The position numbers and the translations under genes were made by a program. 64,000 nt of DNA from Acidobacteriota bacterium (lineage in GTDB: Bacteria > Acidobacteriota > Vicinamibacteria > Fen-336), in NCBI GenBank assembly GCA_022340585.1, contig JAJDNS010000003.1:1-64000 (forward strand), written 5' to 3'. The notes beneath the pieces were generated by a model. It was not told the DNA's origin and searched no databases. It saw only the letters and a program-made list of their open reading frames with translations. Of the stretch, positions 27,222 to 39,001 are shown one piece after another (position 1 is the first letter of the stretch; each line of letters starts with the position of its first letter).

Positions 27222-28451
27222 TCAGCCCTTGACGCACACCACCTGGCGCAGGGTGTGGACGACGTCCACGAGGTCGCTCTGCGCCTCCATCACCGCGTCG
27301 ATGGGCTTGTAGGCGGCGGGGGTCTCGTCGATGACGTCCTCGTCCTTGCGGCACTCGACGTCTCGGGTCGCCGCCGCGTGCTGCTCCACCGTGAAGCGCC
27401 GCCGCGCCTCGGTACGGGACATGGCCCGTCCCGCCCCGTGGCTGCAGCTGTGGTAGCTCTGGGGATTGCCCTTGCCGCGCACGATGTAGGACCGCGCGCC
27501 CATCGAGCCGGGGATGATGCCGAGGTCGCCCTCCCGCGCTCGCACCGCGCCTTTGCGAGTGAGCCAGACGTTCTTCCCGAAGTGACTCTCCTTCGCCACG
27601 TAGTTGTGGTGGCAGTTCACCACCTCCCGGTCCGCGGAGAGCTCGGGCAGGCCGGGCAGAGCCCGGATCGCACCCACGACCGCCCGCATCATGATCTCGC
27701 GGTTGATCCGGGCGAAGTCCTGGGCCCAGCCCACCGCCTCCACGTAGTCCCCGAAGTGCGACACGCCCTCGGGAAAGTACGCGAGGTCCACGTCGGGCAG
27801 GTTGATCATCCACGTCCGCATGTCCCTCTTCGCGAGCTCGATGAAGTAGCTGCCGATCTTGTTCCCCACCCCCCGCGAGCCGCTGTGGAGCATGCACCAG
27901 ACACGATCCTCCTCGTCGAGGCAGACCTCGATGAAGTGGTTGCCGGTGCCGAGGGTGCCGAGGTGGTTCACGCTGTTGGCCCGGCGGACCGTCGGGTGCT
28001 TCTCGGCGATCCGCTCGAAGCGCTCCCTCAGGCCCTCCCAGGCCGCGGACACCGGGTCGGGTACCTTCGCCCAGGCTCCCCGGTCTCCACGGCCGCCGCT
28101 GGCCGTCCGCCCGTGGGGAACCGCCGCCTCGATCGCGCTGCGCATGGGGGCCAGGTTGTCGGGCAGGTCGCTGGCGGTCAGGCTGGTCTCCACCGCCATC
28201 ATGCCGCACCCGATGTCGACGCCCACCGCGGCGGGGATGATGGCCCGGTGGGTGGGGATCACGCTGCCCACCGTCGCCCCCATCCCCCAGTGCACGTCGG
28301 GCATGACCGCCACCCAGCCGTGAACGAAGGGCATGGACGCCACGTTGAGGACCTGCTCCTTCGCCTTGTCGTCGAACTGGACACCCCGGGTCCACGCCTT
28401 GACCAGCTTGCGCCCGGGCTCGCTGAAGATCTCGAATCGCGGGTTGCTCAT
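27222..28451 (-). CDS. rtcB: RNA-splicing ligase RtcB
   Basis: 409 aa GTP- and Mn2+-dependent RNA ligase joining 2',3'-cyclic phosphate or 3'-phosphate to 5'-OH ends. Motifs: MPDVHWGMGATVGSVIP (50-66), VGVDIGCGMM with Mn-ligand Cys82, NHLGTLGTGNHFIE (162-175), HSGSRGVG (189-196), HHNYVAKE (281-288), GSMGARSYIV (315-324) and SHGAGRAMSR with the guanylylated His338. ATG at 28451 has GGGAGGGG upstream; the open frame continues to 28544 without a better start. No rtcA, rtcR or archease gene is adjacent. Confidence 0.96.
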   Translation of the reverse strand: MSNPRFEIFSEPGRKLVKAWTRGVQFDDKAKEQVLNVASMPFVHGWVAVMPDVHWGMGATVGSVIPTHRAIIPAAVGVDIGCGMMAVETSLTASDLPDNLAPMRSAIEAAVPHGRTASGGRGDRGAWAKVPDPVSAAWEGLRERFERIAEKHPTVRRANSVNHLGTLGTGNHFIEVCLDEEDRVWCMLHSGSRGVGNKIGSYFIELAKRDMRTWMINLPDVDLAYFPEGVSHFGDYVEAVGWAQDFARINREIMMRAVVGAIRALPGLPELSADREVVNCHHNYVAKESHFGKNVWLTRKGAVRAREGDLGIIPGSMGARSYIVRGKGNPQSYHSCSHGAGRAMSRTEARRRFTVEQHAAATRDVECRKDEDVIDETPAAYKPIDAVMEAQSDLVDVVHTLRQVVCVKG

Positions 28452-28589
28452 CGGCCCCCTCCCCTGGCCACGGCCGCCTCGGCCCGTGACACGAAGCCCA
28501 CGGAACGCGGAGAAGAAGAGCTGGAGGGATGTTACCTGAATCAAACGTCTCAGTCCGAACGAATCGCGCGTCGGGCGCCGCGAGGCTCC

Positions 28590-28642: not shown

Positions 28643-30250
28643 ATGAAGACGCGGCTCTACCGGTCCTGGGGTTTCGCCACGGTCCTGGTGGCGCTCCTGG
28701 CCGCGGCCCCCGTCGTGTTCGGTCCCGAGAGCCCCCGCGCCGCGCGGACCCGGCCCCCCGCCCTCGCCGGGACGTGGTATCCCAAGGGGAAGGCCCACCT
28801 GATCTCGGCCGCCCACCTCCTCATGCGCCTCGCCGCCGGCGCGCCGACCCTCCCCTCGAAGCCGGTGGCCCTGGTCGTGCCCCACGCCGGATGGAACTTC
28901 TCCGGCTACGCGGCCGCCACCGCGTACCGCCTGCTCGAGCCGGGCGACTTCGACCGCGTCGTCGTCCTGGCCCCCTCGCACCACGGCGCATTCGCGGGCT
29001 ACGCCCTGGACGACGCCACGGCGTACCGCACGCCGCTGGGCGACATCCCCCTGTGCGAGGGAGTGACGAAGGCCCTCGCCGGCGACGTGGCCCGGATCGT
29101 GCCAGGCGTCACCGAGCCGGAGCACGCGGTCGAGATCGAGCTGCCGTTCCTACAGGTCGCCCTGGGGCGTTTCTGCCTCGTGCCGATCCTCGCCGGCGAC
29201 ACGCGACCGCGGGACCAGAAGGCCTTCGCGGACCAGCTCGCGAGACTGGACGACGGACGCACCCTCTTCGTCTTCTCCTCCGATTTCGCCCACTACGGCT
29301 CGCGCTTCGGCTACGCGCCTTTTGGAGATCTGTCGCCGGAGACCCGCGAGCAGGTCCGGGAGATGGACACCCGGGGAGTGGCCCTTCTCTCCGATGTCGA
29401 CGCGGACGGGTTCCGCTCCTACCTCACCGAGACCGGCACCACCATCTGCGGGCGCCACGGCCTCGCCACGATGCTGGAGCTGCTCCAGCGCATCGCTCCC
29501 CAGGCCCGGGCGGTCCTCCTCGCCCAGTACATGTCGGCCGACCTGCCCATCCCCAGCGAGGGCAGCTCGGTCTCGTACGTGGCCCTCGGCTTCGTTCGCG
29601 GCCCCGAGGCTCCCGCCCCCGGGAATCCGCTCCTCACGCTTCCCCGGCTCGAGACCGCGCCGGTGGGGGCCCCGCCCCTGACCGACGAGGAGGGCGCCCG
29701 GCTCGTCCACCTCGCCCGCGCCGCCCTCGAAACCGAGCTCGCCGGGAAGGACAGCCTCGGTCCCCTGCTGGCGGAGTGGCCCACCGGCCCGACCCACGAG
29801 CAGCGTCAGGGCGTCTTCGTGACGCTCAACCGGACCGACCCTCGGGAGATCCGAGCGCACGGACGGCTCAGGGGCTGCATCGGGCAGCCCGAGCCGCAGT
29901 TCCCCCTCTACTACGGCACGGTGCAGGCCGCCCTCGACGCGGCCCAGCGCGACCCGCGGTTCGAGCCGGTGGAGGCGTCCGAGCTCGACCGGATCGAGGT
30001 GGAGGTCACGGCGCTGTCCCCCCGGCGACCGGTCGCGTCCGCCCAGGAGATCCAGGTGGGCAAGCACGGGATCGTCCTCGAGAAGAACGGCAAGGCCGCG
30101 TTGTTCCTGCCCCAGGTGGCCACGGAGAGCGGCTGGACCCGCGAGCAGACCCTGACCGCGCTCTCGCAGAAGGCGGGGCTGCCCCCCGACGGCTGGAAGG
30201 ACGGGGCCCGCTTCTCGGTCTTCACGGGCCAGGTGTTCAAGGAGGAGTGA
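28643..30250 (+). CDS. AmmeMemoRadiSam system protein: fused Memo and AMMECR1 domains, with signal peptide
   Basis: 535 aa. Residues 1-30: basic start, hydrophobic WGFATVLVALLAAAPVVFG, a likely Sec signal or anchor. Residues ~37-320: Memo (class III extradiol dioxygenase-like); the metal-site residues are visible as VVPHAGWNFSG (H81), LAPSHHGAF (H113/H114), SSDFAHYGSRFGY (H217) and TTICGRHG (C269, matching human MEMO1 C244). Residues ~350-535: AMMECR1 domain with GRLRGCIGQPEP. The two are separate proteins in many genomes. Function of the system is unknown; human MEMO1 binds iron and copper. First gene of a three-gene operon; AGGACGCC precedes the ATG, and the stop overlaps the next ATG by one base. 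Confidence 0.93.
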   Translation: MKTRLYRSWGFATVLVALLAAAPVVFGPESPRAARTRPPALAGTWYPKGKAHLISAAHLLMRLAAGAPTLPSKPVALVVPHAGWNFSGYAAATAYRLLEPGDFDRVVVLAPSHHGAFAGYALDDATAYRTPLGDIPLCEGVTKALAGDVARIVPGVTEPEHAVEIELPFLQVALGRFCLVPILAGDTRPRDQKAFADQLARLDDGRTLFVFSSDFAHYGSRFGYAPFGDLSPETREQVREMDTRGVALLSDVDADGFRSYLTETGTTICGRHGLATMLELLQRIAPQARAVLLAQYMSADLPIPSEGSSVSYVALGFVRGPEAPAPGNPLLTLPRLETAPVGAPPLTDEEGARLVHLARAALETELAGKDSLGPLLAEWPTGPTHEQRQGVFVTLNRTDPREIRAHGRLRGCIGQPEPQFPLYYGTVQAALDAAQRDPRFEPVEASELDRIEVEVTALSPRRPVASAQEIQVGKHGIVLEKNGKAALFLPQVATESGWTREQTLTALSQKAGLPPDGWKDGARFSVFTGQVFKEE

Positions 30251-31254
30251 TGGCCATCGACCGTGATCGCCGACGCACCCTGTCGGCCCTGGGCGCGGGC
30301 GCCTTGACCGCCTCCCCTCTCGCCCGAGCGGCCGAGGCGTTCTTTCCCGGCCCGCCACCAGGGCCACGGTCAGCCCCCGCCGGACCGACGGTCGCGGTGG
30401 CCCGGCGCCCGGGGCTGGTCGGGGCCCGGGACGTGCTCGACCCGGCAAAGCTCGCCGATGGCCTCGGCGCAGCGGTGGCTCGAGCCGTGGGAGAGAGCTC
30501 CCCCGTCGACGGGCTGCGACGGCTCTTCGAGCCGACCGACGTCGTGGGGATCAAGGTCAACTGCCTGGGCGGGGCCGGGGTGTCGACCCGCCCGGAGGTG
30601 GCCCACGAGCTCGCGAGGTGGCTGCAGGCGGCCGGCGTTCCCGCCAACCGCATCCTGATCTGGGACCGCAGCGACCGGGAGCTGAGCGCCGCCGGCTACA
30701 CGTTGAGCGACGGCCCGGGTGTCCGCGTTCGAGGCACTGGCGTCGACTGGGATCGAAGGCTCACCGAGTGGGGCCCCTCCGCTTCCCGGTTCGCCCGGGC
30801 GATGGTGGAGGACCTGACCGCGGTCATCTCGCTGGGCCGACTCAAGGACCACGGCCTCGCCGGAGTCACCCTCTCGCTGAAGAACTGGTACGGGACCGTG
30901 AACAACCCCAACAAGCTGCACGCCGAGGGCTGTGCCCCCTACGTTCCCCACCTCGTGGCCCACCCCCTGATCCGGGAGAAGCTGCGGCTGTCGATCGTGG
31001 ACGGCTCCACCGGGCAGTGCCACGGCGGCCCCGGCCGGGCCCCCAACTGGGACTGGCCCTTCCACGGCTTCCTCGCCTCCACCGACCCCGTCGCCCTCGA
31101 CACGGTGGGGTGGCGGACCCTGGAGGCGCAGCGGAAGCGGGTCGGCCTGCCGACGCTGGCCGCCGAGGAGCGGGCGCCCCGCTACATTGCCGGCGCCGCG
31201 AAGCTCGGACTCGGTGTCGATGACCCGGCTCGCATCGAGATCGCGGAGGTCTGA
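30250..31254 (+). CDS. DUF362 domain-containing protein with Tat-like signal
   Basis: 334 aa. The N-terminus RDRRRTLSALGAGALTASPL looks like a twin-arginine signal, cut near ARAAEA. The body carries the DUF362 core: VVGIKVNCLGGAGVSTRPEV, ISLGRLKDHGLAGVTLSLKNWYG and the late DGSTGQCHGGPG and STDPVALDTVGW segments. DUF362 proteins are uncharacterised and often associated with Fe-S proteins, but there is no ferredoxin domain here and few Cys. Starts in the TGATG overlap with the preceding Memo-AMMECR1 gene and directly abuts the radical SAM gene, so a role in the same process is likely. Confidence 0.9.
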   Translation: MAIDRDRRRTLSALGAGALTASPLARAAEAFFPGPPPGPRSAPAGPTVAVARRPGLVGARDVLDPAKLADGLGAAVARAVGESSPVDGLRRLFEPTDVVGIKVNCLGGAGVSTRPEVAHELARWLQAAGVPANRILIWDRSDRELSAAGYTLSDGPGVRVRGTGVDWDRRLTEWGPSASRFARAMVEDLTAVISLGRLKDHGLAGVTLSLKNWYGTVNNPNKLHAEGCAPYVPHLVAHPLIREKLRLSIVDGSTGQCHGGPGRAPNWDWPFHGFLASTDPVALDTVGWRTLEAQRKRVGLPTLAAEERAPRYIAGAAKLGLGVDDPARIEIAEV

Positions 31255-32448
31255 ATGGCCCGCCCCCGAGGCCCGTCCGGCGTGAACGCACCCGAGCGGA
31301 GGATGTTTCTCGCGCAGCTGGCCGGTTCGTGCACGGCCTGCGCCCTGGCCGGGATGGGGCCCGGGGACGCCGAGGCGGCGGACCGCGGTCGCCAGGACCC
31401 GGCCATGGGCTTGACGTCGATCGAGGAGGGCGGCCTGAACCCCCATCCCGCCCGCTGGTACGAGAAGCTCCCGGACAGCTGGGTCCAGTGCGGCCTGTGT
31501 CCCCGTGGCTGCCGGATCTCCGACGACGAGCGCGGCACGTGCGGGGTGAGGGAGAACCGGGGCGGGACGCTCTTCACCCTCGTCCACTCGCGCCCCTGCA
31601 CCATCGCCGTCGACCCCGTGGAGAAGAAGCCCTTCTTCCACGTCCTGCCCGGGTCCGTGGCCCTCTCCCTCGCCACCCCCGGCTGCAACCTCTGGTGCAA
31701 GGCCTGCCAGAACTGGGAGATCGCCCAGGCCCGCCCGGAGCAGATCCCCACCCGGACGCTCACCCCTGCCGGCGCGGTCCAGCTGGCCCGGCGCCAGGGG
31801 GCCCCCCTCATCGCCTGCACCTACACCGAGCCCGTGGTCTTCGCGGAGTACGTCCTCGACATCGCCGTCGCCGGCCGGGCCACGGGCGTGCGCACGGTGA
31901 TGATCTCCAACGGCTACATCCAGGAGGAGCCGCTGGCCGATCTCTGCCAGGAGATCGCCGCCTACAAGGTGGACCTGAAGGGATTCGACCCCGTCTTCTT
32001 CGAGGAGCACTGCGGGGGGAAGCTCCCGGCCGTCCTCGACACGCTCCGGCGGCTGCGGAAGCACGGGATCTGGACGGAGATCGTGGCCCTCATCATCCCC
32101 ACCCAGAACGACTCGGTCGCCGAGATCCGGGACCTCGCCCGCTTCGTGCGCGACGACCTCGGGGACGAGGTCCCGGTCCACTTCACTCGCTTCCATCCCG
32201 CCTACCGCCTCGCCAACCTTCCGTCGACCCCGGTGGCCACGCTCGAGCGTTGTCGCGACGTGGCCATGGGCGAGGGCTTGAGGTTCGTCTACATCGGCAA
32301 CGTGCCCGGACACCCCGGCGAGAACACCTACTGCCCGGGTTGTGGTGAGGTGCTCATCCAGCGGCTGGGCATGGCGGTCATCAGGAACCGCCTGAAGGGC
32401 GGGGCTTGTCCCGACTGCCACCGCTCGATCCCCGGCATCTGGAGCTGA
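31255..32448 (+). CDS. AmmeMemoRadiSam system radical SAM enzyme with Tat-like N-terminus
   Basis: 397 aa related to pyruvate-formate-lyase activating enzymes. Residues 14-33 (PERRMFLAQLAGSCTACALA) resemble a Tat signal. A Cys set C79-C82-C86-C96 (VQCGLCPRGCRI) precedes the radical SAM motif C144-x3-C148-x2-C151 (CNLWCKACQNWEI). The GCRT of a typical GGE stretch is not obvious, but IISNGYIQEEPL and VDLKGFD follow the family. The C-terminus has a CPGC...CPDC zinc ribbon. ATG follows the DUF362 stop without a gap. Substrate and product unknown; no candidate peptide substrate is visible nearby. Confidence 0.94.
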   Translation: MARPRGPSGVNAPERRMFLAQLAGSCTACALAGMGPGDAEAADRGRQDPAMGLTSIEEGGLNPHPARWYEKLPDSWVQCGLCPRGCRISDDERGTCGVRENRGGTLFTLVHSRPCTIAVDPVEKKPFFHVLPGSVALSLATPGCNLWCKACQNWEIAQARPEQIPTRTLTPAGAVQLARRQGAPLIACTYTEPVVFAEYVLDIAVAGRATGVRTVMISNGYIQEEPLADLCQEIAAYKVDLKGFDPVFFEEHCGGKLPAVLDTLRRLRKHGIWTEIVALIIPTQNDSVAEIRDLARFVRDDLGDEVPVHFTRFHPAYRLANLPSTPVATLERCRDVAMGEGLRFVYIGNVPGHPGENTYCPGCGEVLIQRLGMAVIRNRLKGGACPDCHRSIPGIWS

Positions 32449-36709: not shown

Positions 36710-39001
36710 TCAGGACTCACCGGCCCGGGATCCCGGCGTCGCCCGGGCCAGGGCGACGAGGGCAATGGCGAGCAGGGCCGCCAGCAGCCAGGCCGTCCGG
36801 CTGAAGCCCAGGACGGGGACGAAGAGAACCGCTCCGACGAGGGCGGCGACGGCGGCTCCCAGGTGGTCGGCGGTCTCGAGACGACCCGCGGCGCTGCCGG
36901 TCTCGTCACCGGCGGCGAGGCGGATCGCGGCGGCGGTGGGAAAGAGGGCCCCGGTCACGACCCCGGCGACGAGAAGCAGCGCTCCGTGAGCCACGAGCGC
37001 CGCGACCTGACCTGACCCCGAGGCCCGTCCGGCCGCCTGGAGAGTCCAGGGCAGCGCGGCGGAGTACGACAGAGCGGCGGCGAGGGCGAGCCGCGGCGCC
37101 AAGAGAGGCGAGGCCCCCACCCCGCGGGCCCGGACCACCCGGTGAGCCAGGGTGGCCCCGAGGGCGAGACCGAGCATGAAGAACGCGGTCAGGGCCCCGA
37201 GCGCCCCATACAGGGCCCCCACTCTCGCCTGGAACGAGAGGAGCACCAGGAGAGAGAAGCCCATGCCGGCCGCACCGGTCACCGCCACCGCGTGCGAGGC
37301 CGCGGCGGCGGCGCGCCGGCCCTGCGGACGCCGGACGGTCCACGCGGCGACCAGGAGCGAGGGGAGGAGGGCCAGAAGGACCAGGACCGGCACCGGCAGG
37401 CGGCTCATCGCTCCGATCGCACGGCCCCCCCTTCCCGCCGTCGTTTGCTGTCGGCGCGCGAGGGCGTGGACGAGCGAGGCCGGGCGATCGTCCCGGCTCG
37501 GCTCGACGGTCGCCGAGGCGTCGGCGAGAGCGGTCTCGAAGGCCGCCACACGTTCGGGGGGGAGGAGCACGGGGAGCAGCGCCGCGGCGAAGGAGTCCGC
37601 CACGATGGCGCGGTCGGTCCAGCGCCCGGCGAGGGTCTCGGGATCGAGGGTGACCGCCTCCGCGCTCGTGCCGGCCACGAGGAGCGTCTCCGGCCCCGGG
37701 GTGGCCCGGACCACGGGCAGCGCCTCCCGCATGGCCCCGAAGAGCGAGCCCGCGAGGGCGGCGGTCTCGCCCACGAGGACGCTCGGCGCGGTCCGGACAC
37801 CGGCCACGACCACGCCGTCGGGCTCGAGGCGCGCCGCCACCTGACGGAAGAACTCGACGGTTCCCAGCCGGGCCCGCAGCAGGGTCACCGGGTCGGGGCC
37901 CAGTGCGAGAATCAGGCCGAAGCGGTCGGTCGACCGCCCGAGGAAACGCCGGGGATCGTCGTGAACCAGCCTCACCCGCGGGTCGTCGAGGGCCGCCCGG
38001 TCCTGGTCGGCCAGGCGGTCGCGAACGAAGGCGAGCTCGTGGCGATCGGGCTCCACGACGACGATCTCGCGCACGGGATGGCGGAGCAGCACGCGCACCA
38101 GTCCCCGCTCCGTCCCCCCGAGAAGGAGGACTCGCTCGGGTCGGGGGGACAGACACGCGACCAGGTGACCGAGGCTCTCGCTCCCGTAGACATCCGGAAA
38201 GCTGCTCACGTACTGCCCGCTCGCGTAGAGGTTCCACACGCCGTTGCTGCCGCCGAGTGCGAGGTGCTGGAGTGGGGTGTCCCGCACCGCCCGAAGCGGG
38301 ATCCCGGGCGCGACGCCGGAGAAGCGCAGGCGCTCGCTCCACGAGTCCAGCGAGCGGGAGCCCACCAGGGCGAGGGCACACAGAGCCACCGCGGCGGCGA
38401 GGGTCTTGCCTCCCTCGACCACGCCCGTCCGCGCCGCGAGGAGGGCCAGCAGCGCGGCGAGAGCCCCGAGAAGGCCGGCGGCGGGGAGGGGCGCGAGGTG
38501 GGGTCCGACGAGCAGGCTCACGGCGAGACCTCCCACGAGCGAGCCGAGGGACTCGACGACGTAGAGTCGGGTGATCGCCTCGGTGGCCATCCAGAGCCGT
38601 GATGCGGACGCGGCGAGGGTCGTGAAGGTCCAGCCGACCATCCCGCCCGGGGGCACCAGGGTCGCGACGGCGAGGAGCGCGGTCAGGCCGAGCCCGGGCA
38701 GCTCCCCGGAATCGGGTCCCAGGGCACTGCGCAGCAGGCGTCCGGCTACGATGCCGAGGACGGGCAGGAGGGCCAGGAGGGCGATCCCCATCGCGGCCTC
38801 CCGGGAGGCGCGCCGGACCGGCCGGCGTCGCCCGCCAGCGGCGCCGACGGCAATCCCCAGCAGCCACGCGGCGAGACCGATGCCGATCGCGAGCTCGTCG
38901 CCGGCCACGTCCACCACGAGCTCCCGCAGGAGAAGCACCTGCGCCGCTACCGCGAGGAACCCCGCCGCGAAGAACGCACCGTGCTGAACCAGCGTCTTCA
39001 T
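36710..39001 (-). CDS. Polytopic membrane protein with internal spermidine synthase-like domain
   Basis: 763 aa. N-terminal block of ~6-7 hydrophobic helices (1-230), a soluble Rossmann domain like spermidine synthase/methyltransferase (about 255-430: RVLLLGGTERGLVRVLLRHP, EIVVVEPDRHELAFVRDRLA, DPRVRLVHDDPRRFLGR), then a second block of ~8 helices. This matches the family of fused MFS-like/spermidine synthase-like transmembrane proteins whose function is unknown. The catalytic Asp of aminopropyltransferases (D.sDP.gp..LyT.eFy) reads ALGPDPVTLLRARLGTVEFF, so normal spermidine synthesis is unlikely. ATG at 39001 abuts a direct repeat. Confidence 0.85.
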   Translation of the reverse strand: MKTLVQHGAFFAAGFLAVAAQVLLLRELVVDVAGDELAIGIGLAAWLLGIAVGAAGGRRRPVRRASREAAMGIALLALLPVLGIVAGRLLRSALGPDSGELPGLGLTALLAVATLVPPGGMVGWTFTTLAASASRLWMATEAITRLYVVESLGSLVGGLAVSLLVGPHLAPLPAAGLLGALAALLALLAARTGVVEGGKTLAAAVALCALALVGSRSLDSWSERLRFSGVAPGIPLRAVRDTPLQHLALGGSNGVWNLYASGQYVSSFPDVYGSESLGHLVACLSPRPERVLLLGGTERGLVRVLLRHPVREIVVVEPDRHELAFVRDRLADQDRAALDDPRVRLVHDDPRRFLGRSTDRFGLILALGPDPVTLLRARLGTVEFFRQVAARLEPDGVVVAGVRTAPSVLVGETAALAGSLFGAMREALPVVRATPGPETLLVAGTSAEAVTLDPETLAGRWTDRAIVADSFAAALLPVLLPPERVAAFETALADASATVEPSRDDRPASLVHALARRQQTTAGRGGRAIGAMSRLPVPVLVLLALLPSLLVAAWTVRRPQGRRAAAAASHAVAVTGAAGMGFSLLVLLSFQARVGALYGALGALTAFFMLGLALGATLAHRVVRARGVGASPLLAPRLALAAALSYSAALPWTLQAAGRASGSGQVAALVAHGALLLVAGVVTGALFPTAAAIRLAAGDETGSAAGRLETADHLGAAVAALVGAVLFVPVLGFSRTAWLLAALLAIALVALARATPGSRAGES

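Follow-up and report, generated by a model that had tools for sequence, protein, structure and literature searches.

The identification of a three-gene operon in an acidobacterium, in which every product begins with what looks like an export signal, raises the question of whether a radical SAM enzyme system thought to work only inside cells can also exist in a form that works outside the cytoplasm. The AmmeMemoRadiSam system is a widespread set of bacterial enzymes of unknown function, one of which makes radicals from S-adenosylmethionine (SAM). To address this question, we started from a window of 64,000 nucleotides (contig JAJDNS010000003.1, positions 1 to 64,000, of assembly GCA_022340585.1) and then extended the analysis to other genomes.

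The operon and its N-termini

The first gene, at positions 28643-30250 on the forward strand, encodes a Memo-AMMECR1 fusion of 535 residues, with TIGR04336 matched at residues 37-315 (180.5 bits, cutoff 26) and TIGR04335 at residues 353-532 (150.2 bits, cutoff 99). It carries a Sec-type N-terminal signal, MKTRLYRSWGFATVLVALLAAAPVVFGPESPRA (28643-28741, forward strand), and equivalent signals are found on the fused Memo of relatives. Alignment to human MEMO1 (7kq8) showed that the H/H/C metal ligands equivalent to H49, H81 and C244 are present. The second gene (30250-31254, forward strand) encodes a DUF362 protein of 334 residues (PF04015, 75.5 bits, cutoff 24) with a Tat-type signal, MAIDRDRRRTLSALGAGALTASPLARAA (30250-30333, forward strand), and an RR-type signal is also seen on most relatives. 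The third gene (31255-32448, forward strand) encodes AmrS, the radical SAM enzyme, of 397 residues (TIGR04337, 344.4 bits, cutoff 220), with a Tat-type signal, PERRMFLAQLAGSCTACALA (31255-31377, forward strand), and the radical SAM motif CNLWCKAC (C144, C148 and C151; 31684-31707, forward strand). The AmmeMemoRadiSam families are thus encoded by adjacent genes, all above their curated cutoffs.

The first-pass annotation had described three overlapping genes with a Sec-like N-terminus on the first product and Tat-like N-termini on the other two, and this observation was confirmed, including its coordinates. The description of the genes as overlapping was slightly off, as only the first pair overlaps (1 nt, TGATG), while the second pair abuts (TGA followed directly by ATG). 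Alternative starts located after the signals had been put forward as a result that would overturn the observation; each of the three starts has a GGAGG box at a normal distance, placing the signals inside Shine-Dalgarno-supported reading frames. Moreover, R15 and R16 of AmrS are invariant in 28 of 28 aligned members of its clade, at 49-78% identity, although the rest of the N-terminus diverges. Signals were called with a heuristic detector developed for this work, as SignalP and DeepTMHMM were not applied; the detector fires on 5.4% of shuffled N-termini, but on 98 of 160 real ones. A twin-Arg motif followed by a hydrophobic region near the start is present in AmrS and DUF362 of the window and of most relatives. 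TatC is present in the genome, although Tat-dependent export itself was not measured.

A survey of AmrS loci

To evaluate how widespread this arrangement is, we surveyed 160 AmrS loci. Export-type N-termini were found on 110 AmrS (referred to as exported hereafter, on sequence grounds), and these cluster in one large clade (4 changes needed as compared with 41.2 for shuffled labels), with export-type members in more than twenty phyla. A further 48 AmrS are unsignalled, including the second copy found in the window genome itself. The apparent exceptions were also inspected, and two of them (loci L125 and L112 of the survey) have signal-bearing N-termini in another frame, likely due to assembly frameshifts. 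In three Bacteroidales loci (L118, L121 and L134) both signals are lacking in concert. Some AmrS, from Omnitrophota and others, carry Sec/TM-type instead of Tat-type N-termini, which is awkward for an iron-sulfur enzyme.

Exported proteins keep their catalytic residues. The radical SAM cysteines are invariant in both the 110 exported and the 48 unsignalled AmrS, and the iron-sulfur and SAM-site residues (T189, Y190, E192, D240, K242 and H309 in the window protein) are as conserved in the former as in the latter. In addition, the Memo H/H/C and D/H ligands and the AMMECR1 RGC are conserved in 53-57 of 57 exported fusions. Several Memo-AMMECR1 proteins have lipoprotein-type (lipobox) signals. 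Genomes with exported AmrS also carry a signal-bearing Memo-AMMECR1 fusion even when it is unlinked: it was found in 23 of 23 genomes whose exported AmrS locus lacked or truncated it, next to a signal-less standalone Memo in most of them.

It had been proposed beforehand that a genome survey should establish whether DUF362 joins the operon only when signals are present, and the survey showed that DUF362 adjoins AmrS only when AmrS is Tat-type (52 of 52), and never with unsignalled (0 of 48) or Sec-type AmrS (0 of 16). Nevertheless, the expectation that all products carry signals does not hold everywhere, since DUF362 lacks a signal in 13 related loci.

A subclade of Tat-type AmrS carries a CxxCH heme-c motif in the exported segment. 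The motif is present in 8 of 8 subclade members and in 0 of 102 other exported AmrS, and 12 more were found when relatives were retrieved. Heme c is attached only outside the cytoplasm. The window AmrS does not belong with these proteins, as its only CxxCH (CPDCH, residues 385-389) is its C-terminal ribbon; CxxCH in the C-terminal ribbon of AmrS was rejected as evidence for heme.

A membrane protein that co-occurs with exported AmrS

A further component, not seen in the first-pass annotation, emerged from the genome comparison. A polytopic membrane protein with a central spermidine-synthase-like domain co-occurs with exported AmrS, being present in 92 of 97 genomes with exported AmrS versus 9 of 299 genomes without. 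As the association of export with DUF362 or with the membrane protein at the level of loci offered only 3 pairs of independent tree transitions, too few for a test, a family-stratified genome test was used instead, which gave z = 7.1 for the membrane protein. Three apparent exceptions outside the phylum (genomes G456, G466 and G479) each proved to hold a second, exported AmrS. Of nine Acidobacteriota genomes with the membrane protein but no exported AmrS, four (G099, G100, G163 and G255) have split or truncated AmrS pieces, in part on the same contigs as the membrane protein, and no explanation was found for the other five.

In the window, this predicted partner (763 residues; PF01564, 60 bits) is encoded at 36710-39001 on the reverse strand, 4 kb away from the operon and not part of it, and its adenosyl-site motifs are partly degenerate. 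The AlphaFold2 model (pLDDT 91.5) has 7 TM helices before the domain and about 7 after it, and the positive-inside rule puts the domain outside in 27 of 27 sequences.

A probable extracytoplasmic form of the system

Altogether, we consider it likely, with good though not complete confidence, that the operon encodes an ancient extracytoplasmic form of the AmmeMemoRadiSam system, paralogous to the cytoplasmic one. In this view, AmrS folds and receives its [4Fe-4S] cluster in the cytoplasm and is exported by Tat, Memo-AMMECR1 goes out by Sec, often as a lipoprotein, and DUF362 usually goes out by Tat; they would act together at the outer face of the inner membrane with a 14-TM membrane protein whose adenosyl-binding domain faces outwards. 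What the sequences themselves show are the signals and their conservation, the preserved catalytic residues, the heme motif in one subclade and the co-occurrence of the parts, whereas actual export, complex formation and the outward position of the domain are inferred from them, as no localisation data were available. It is speculative that the membrane protein supplies SAM, or removes its by-products, and that a c-type heme or another respiratory donor reduces AmrS; the substrate is unknown, but is probably an envelope molecule (lipid, isoprenoid/quinone or surface protein). No SAM pool or radical SAM reductant outside the cytoplasm is known to us.

The first-pass annotation had argued that the location is a new clue to the function of the system, and that either the complex is membrane-anchored with the catalytic parts inside or the proteins are exported, folded and pre-charged, by Tat. 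This interpretation is supported, and of the two options the evidence favours export, based on the heme-c motif, the lipoprotein-type signals and the N-in/C-out rule for Tat and Sec signals.

A bolder possibility, which our results do not exclude but which can only be put forward tentatively, is that a complete radical SAM pathway runs at the outer face of the membrane, with the SpeE-like membrane protein bringing SAM (or taking away 5'-deoxyadenosine/methionine) across the membrane, and periplasmic electron carriers, in one lineage a heme c on AmrS itself, reducing the iron-sulfur cluster.

Among the alternatives, the one that survives best, though we regard it as unlikely, is that Tat exports AmrS pre-charged with one SAM for a single turnover, for instance to install a radical or modification on its partner, in which case no outside SAM would be needed and the membrane protein would do something else. 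Tat moves folded, cofactor-loaded proteins, and AmrS resembles glycyl-radical activases, which turn over rarely; however, the near one-to-one link with a membrane protein having a SAM-type pocket suggests an adenosyl ligand at the membrane. Somewhat less likely is that the proteins are exported but no longer do radical SAM chemistry, serving instead as a metal-binding or redox module. The absence of known SAM outside, the binding of iron and copper by human MEMO1 (PMC11081632) and the heme motif in one subclade would agree with this, but all SAM-site and cluster residues are as conserved as in cytoplasmic AmrS, which relaxed chemistry would not keep, and the associated membrane protein is of adenosyl-binding type. 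That the hydrophobic N-termini are anchors only, with the catalytic domains on the cytoplasmic side, is very unlikely: SAM and reductants are cytoplasmic, and a few Sec/TM-type N-termini (for example at loci L085 and L100) have positive charges on both sides of the helix, but Tat and positively charged Sec signals give N-in/C-out topology, CxxCH in 20 Tat-type AmrS would be useless inside, and there are lipobox-type Memo signals. Finally, although GC-rich frames often extend upstream of real starts, wrong start codons or chance hydrophobic, Arg-rich stretches are a most unlikely source of the signals given the Shine-Dalgarno-supported starts, the twin arginines invariant in 28 of 28 sequences and the equally clear signals in AT-richer lineages.

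Memo and AMMECR1 are conserved up to humans, where both have been linked to disease, and their biochemical function is unknown. A second, exported version in more than twenty phyla constrains the substrate to something present or acceptable outside the cytoplasm, and adds two candidate components, the SpeE-like membrane protein and DUF362. We know of no described radical SAM enzyme that works outside the cytoplasm, and searches of the literature on AmmeMemoRadiSam, on DUF362 together with Tat and on extracytoplasmic radical SAM enzymes gave nothing relevant, although these did not cover the 2019 JBC study of Memo families cited in PMC7159879.

Comparison with known systems

Human MEMO1 shares the Memo fold and the H/H/C metal site, but it is cytosolic, unfused and not known to work with a radical SAM partner. 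DUF362 belongs to the same Pfam clan (CL0471) as the LarA/DUF2088 nickel-pincer racemase superfamily (PMC11770544), and the predicted structure of the window DUF362 (AlphaFold2 pLDDT 89.5) had LarA-like nickel-pincer enzymes as best Foldseek hits (E 9e-6, probability 1.0, TMq 0.47), indicating a LarA-like predicted fold. The protein differs in its Tat-type signal and had no sequence hit in the PDB; conserved K199-D200-H201, K211, K222 and H224 were observed, but were not matched to the NPN-binding Lys and catalytic His residues of LarA.

The membrane protein resembles spermidine synthase SpeE and membrane-fused SpeE proteins (PRK03612, NF037959) in its central Rossmann domain (TM-score 0.7 to 1uir/3anx) and its GGG-G, ELD and DGR adenosyl motifs. 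However, the catalytic Asp-x-x-Asp-Pro of SpeE, with the Asp pair of aminopropyl transfer, is replaced by Asn-Leu-Pro-x-Pro in the family consensus, there are 7 TM helices before the domain and about 7 after it, and scores fall below the NCBIfam equivalog cutoffs.

Among the closest known systems is the AmmeMemoRadiSam system itself (NCBIfam TIGR04335, TIGR04336 and TIGR04337), with which the operon shares all three families and the conserved catalytic residues, while biochemical function, unknown for both, was not assayed here. The form described here differs in that Memo and AMMECR1 are fused and signal-bearing, AmrS is Tat-type, DUF362 and a membrane SpeE-like protein are associated, and a heme motif is present in one subclade; moreover, the window genome also has an unsignalled TIGR04337 protein elsewhere.

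The AmmeMemoRadiSam operon and its N-terminal signals

We first examined the three consecutive genes found on the plus strand of the window, which encode a Memo-AMMECR1 fusion (28643-30250), a DUF362 protein (30250-31254) and an AmrS radical SAM enzyme (31255-32448). Their products match TIGR04336, TIGR04335 and TIGR04337 above the curated cutoffs, as well as Pfam DUF362. The first-pass annotation had described three overlapping genes; in fact, the first pair overlaps by one base, while the second pair abuts. Each start is preceded by GGAGG. The N-termini read MKTRLYRSWGFATVLVALLAAAPVVFG (Sec-type) for the fusion, MAIDRDRRRTLSALGAGALTASPLARA (Tat-type) for DUF362 and PERRMFLAQLAGSCTACALAG (Tat-type) for AmrS, and the observation in that annotation that all three products carry export-type N-termini was confirmed. 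Moreover, the genome encodes TatC, together with a second TIGR04337 protein located elsewhere, which lacks a signal. An RtcB-type RNA ligase gene (27222-28544, minus strand) is divergent from the operon, and its best NCBIfam matches include intein-containing RtcB models, below their cutoffs.

Distribution and conservation of export-type AmrS

To evaluate whether these signals are conserved, 28 AmrS sequences from the window's phylum, 49-78% identical to the window protein, were aligned, which showed that R15 and R16 are invariant while the surrounding N-terminus is not. We then scanned one genome per species across 84,980 species, from which 80 named loci were kept, and retrieved 80 more from relatives. 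A heuristic detector, complemented by reading by eye, labeled 94 of the 160 AmrS as Tat-type, 16 as Sec/TM-type, 48 as unsignalled and 2 as undetermined; the detector fires on 5.4% of shuffled N-termini. On a tree of the core domain, from which the signals were left out, the 110 AmrS with export-type N-termini (hereafter exported AmrS) require 4 changes of state, as compared to 41.2 for shuffled labels. In the same tree, two Acidobacteriota records fall beside genomes of the window's phylum, from which we infer that the host is an acidobacterium. Record titles place exported forms in more than twenty phyla or candidate phyla, including two archaeal ones (loci L107 and L108 of the survey). Sec- or TM-type rather than Tat-type N-termini were found on AmrS from Elusimicrobia, Omnitrophota, Chlamydiae and others (loci L072, L082, L085, L089, L093, L101 and L110); an iron-sulfur enzyme routed by Sec would be odd, and we have no explanation for these cases. 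The cluster cysteines, the extra CxxCxxxC...C set and the SAM-site residues are as conserved in the 110 exported as in the 48 unsignalled AmrS, indicating that the exported form is intact.

Memo-AMMECR1 and DUF362 partners

We then focused on the proteins encoded with AmrS. When AmrS is exported, the linked Memo is nearly always fused to AMMECR1 and signal-bearing, several with a lipobox-like Cys (loci L076, L077, L098, L106, L107 and L176), whereas in three Bacteroidales loci (L118, L121 and L134) both AmrS and Memo lack signals. In 23 genomes whose exported AmrS locus lacked or truncated Memo, a fused, signal-bearing Memo-AMMECR1 was found elsewhere in 23/23 (for genome G263, the evidence is locus L228), and most of these genomes also hold a separate, unfused, signal-less Memo. 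These genomes thus appear to hold two parallel systems.

A genome survey asking whether DUF362 joins the operon only when signals are present had been proposed with the first-pass annotation and was carried out: DUF362 lies about 1 kb upstream of AmrS in 52 loci, all of them Tat-type, and in none of the 48 unsignalled or 16 Sec-type loci. However, DUF362 is not always signal-bearing itself, as 13 related loci start DUF362 at the domain. In loci L165, L168, L169, L171, L173, L175, L178, L181, L185 and L187-L190, it stands next to a Tat-type AmrS without any signal of its own, for a reason that our data do not provide, and co-export with AmrS or a cytoplasmic role are both possible. In addition, a second, divergent DUF362 protein is encoded some kilobases from AmrS in loci L065, L148, L150, L151 and L153, upstream in most and downstream in L065.

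A heme-c motif in a subclade of Tat-type AmrS

A supported subclade of Tat-type AmrS (Chloroflexota, Latescibacterota, Acidobacteriota and others), to which the window AmrS does not belong, has a CxxCH motif between the Tat signal and the radical SAM core. The motif is present in 8/8 subclade members, in 0/102 other exported AmrS and in 1/48 unsignalled AmrS. Retrieving 13 further members gave 12 more, the thirteenth being split; most of these stand on one strand with Memo-AMMECR1 and the membrane protein treated below, and none has DUF362. In all, Tat-type AmrS with the motif were recorded at loci L098, L104, L113, L194, L197-L199, L078, L223-L236, L244 and L245, none of which has DUF362. As heme c is attached only on the outer side of the membrane, this represents sequence evidence for the location that does not depend on reading signals.

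A membrane protein associated with exported AmrS

Neighborhood clustering exposed a protein of about 745 aa with seven TM helices, a spermidine-synthase-like domain and about seven more TM helices. It lies in the retrieved neighborhood of 58 of the 110 exported AmrS loci and of no unsignalled one. Genome-wide in the window's phylum, 92 of 97 genomes with exported AmrS have it full length, versus 9 of 299 without, although exported AmrS was assigned there mainly by bit score, so that the split is approximate. Nevertheless, within ten families in which both traits vary, the association holds (30 genomes with both, 4 with AmrS only, 4 with the membrane protein only and 74 with neither; z 7.1). 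Outside the phylum, of 26 exported loci with no adjacent copy, about 22 genomes have the protein elsewhere; of 24 unsignalled loci, three genomes have it, and all three turned out to encode a second, exported AmrS. The membrane protein is near one-to-one with exported AmrS. The distribution of K and R places the central domain outside in 27/27 sequences. In the window, the protein is encoded at 36710-39001 on the minus strand, separate from the operon.

Possible mode of action

The signals, their conservation, the association of the parts and the heme motif are direct results of the sequence analysis. From these we infer that AmrS is exported as a folded holoenzyme by Tat and Memo-AMMECR1 by Sec, and that they assemble at the outer face of the inner membrane. 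That the membrane protein handles SAM or its products, and that periplasmic electron carriers reduce AmrS, is no more than a guess; whether the membrane protein binds SAM is open, as is the substrate of the system. The suggestion in the first-pass annotation that location is a new clue to this system is supported, with export, rather than anchoring with the catalytic parts inside, being the inferred topology. Memo families were linked to base or isoprenoid modification in a 2019 JBC study, a link that was not tested in this work. Moreover, AMMECR1 is a strong marker of anaerobes (3.4% of aerobes, 50.7% of anaerobes; PMC13386939), which would let an oxygen-sensitive cluster survive outside.

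Comparison with known protein families

The Memo ligands equivalent to MEMO1 H49/H81/C244 (PMC11081632) and the AMMECR1 RGC motif are kept in 53-57 of 57 exported fusions. The predicted structure of the window DUF362 protein (pLDDT 89.5) matches LarA-like nickel-pincer enzymes best, in line with the shared Pfam clan (PMC11770544). Finally, the spermidine-synthase-like domain of the membrane protein looks inactive; it keeps the adenosyl-binding motifs, which are partly degenerate in the copy from the window, but lacks the catalytic Asp pair of SpeE.
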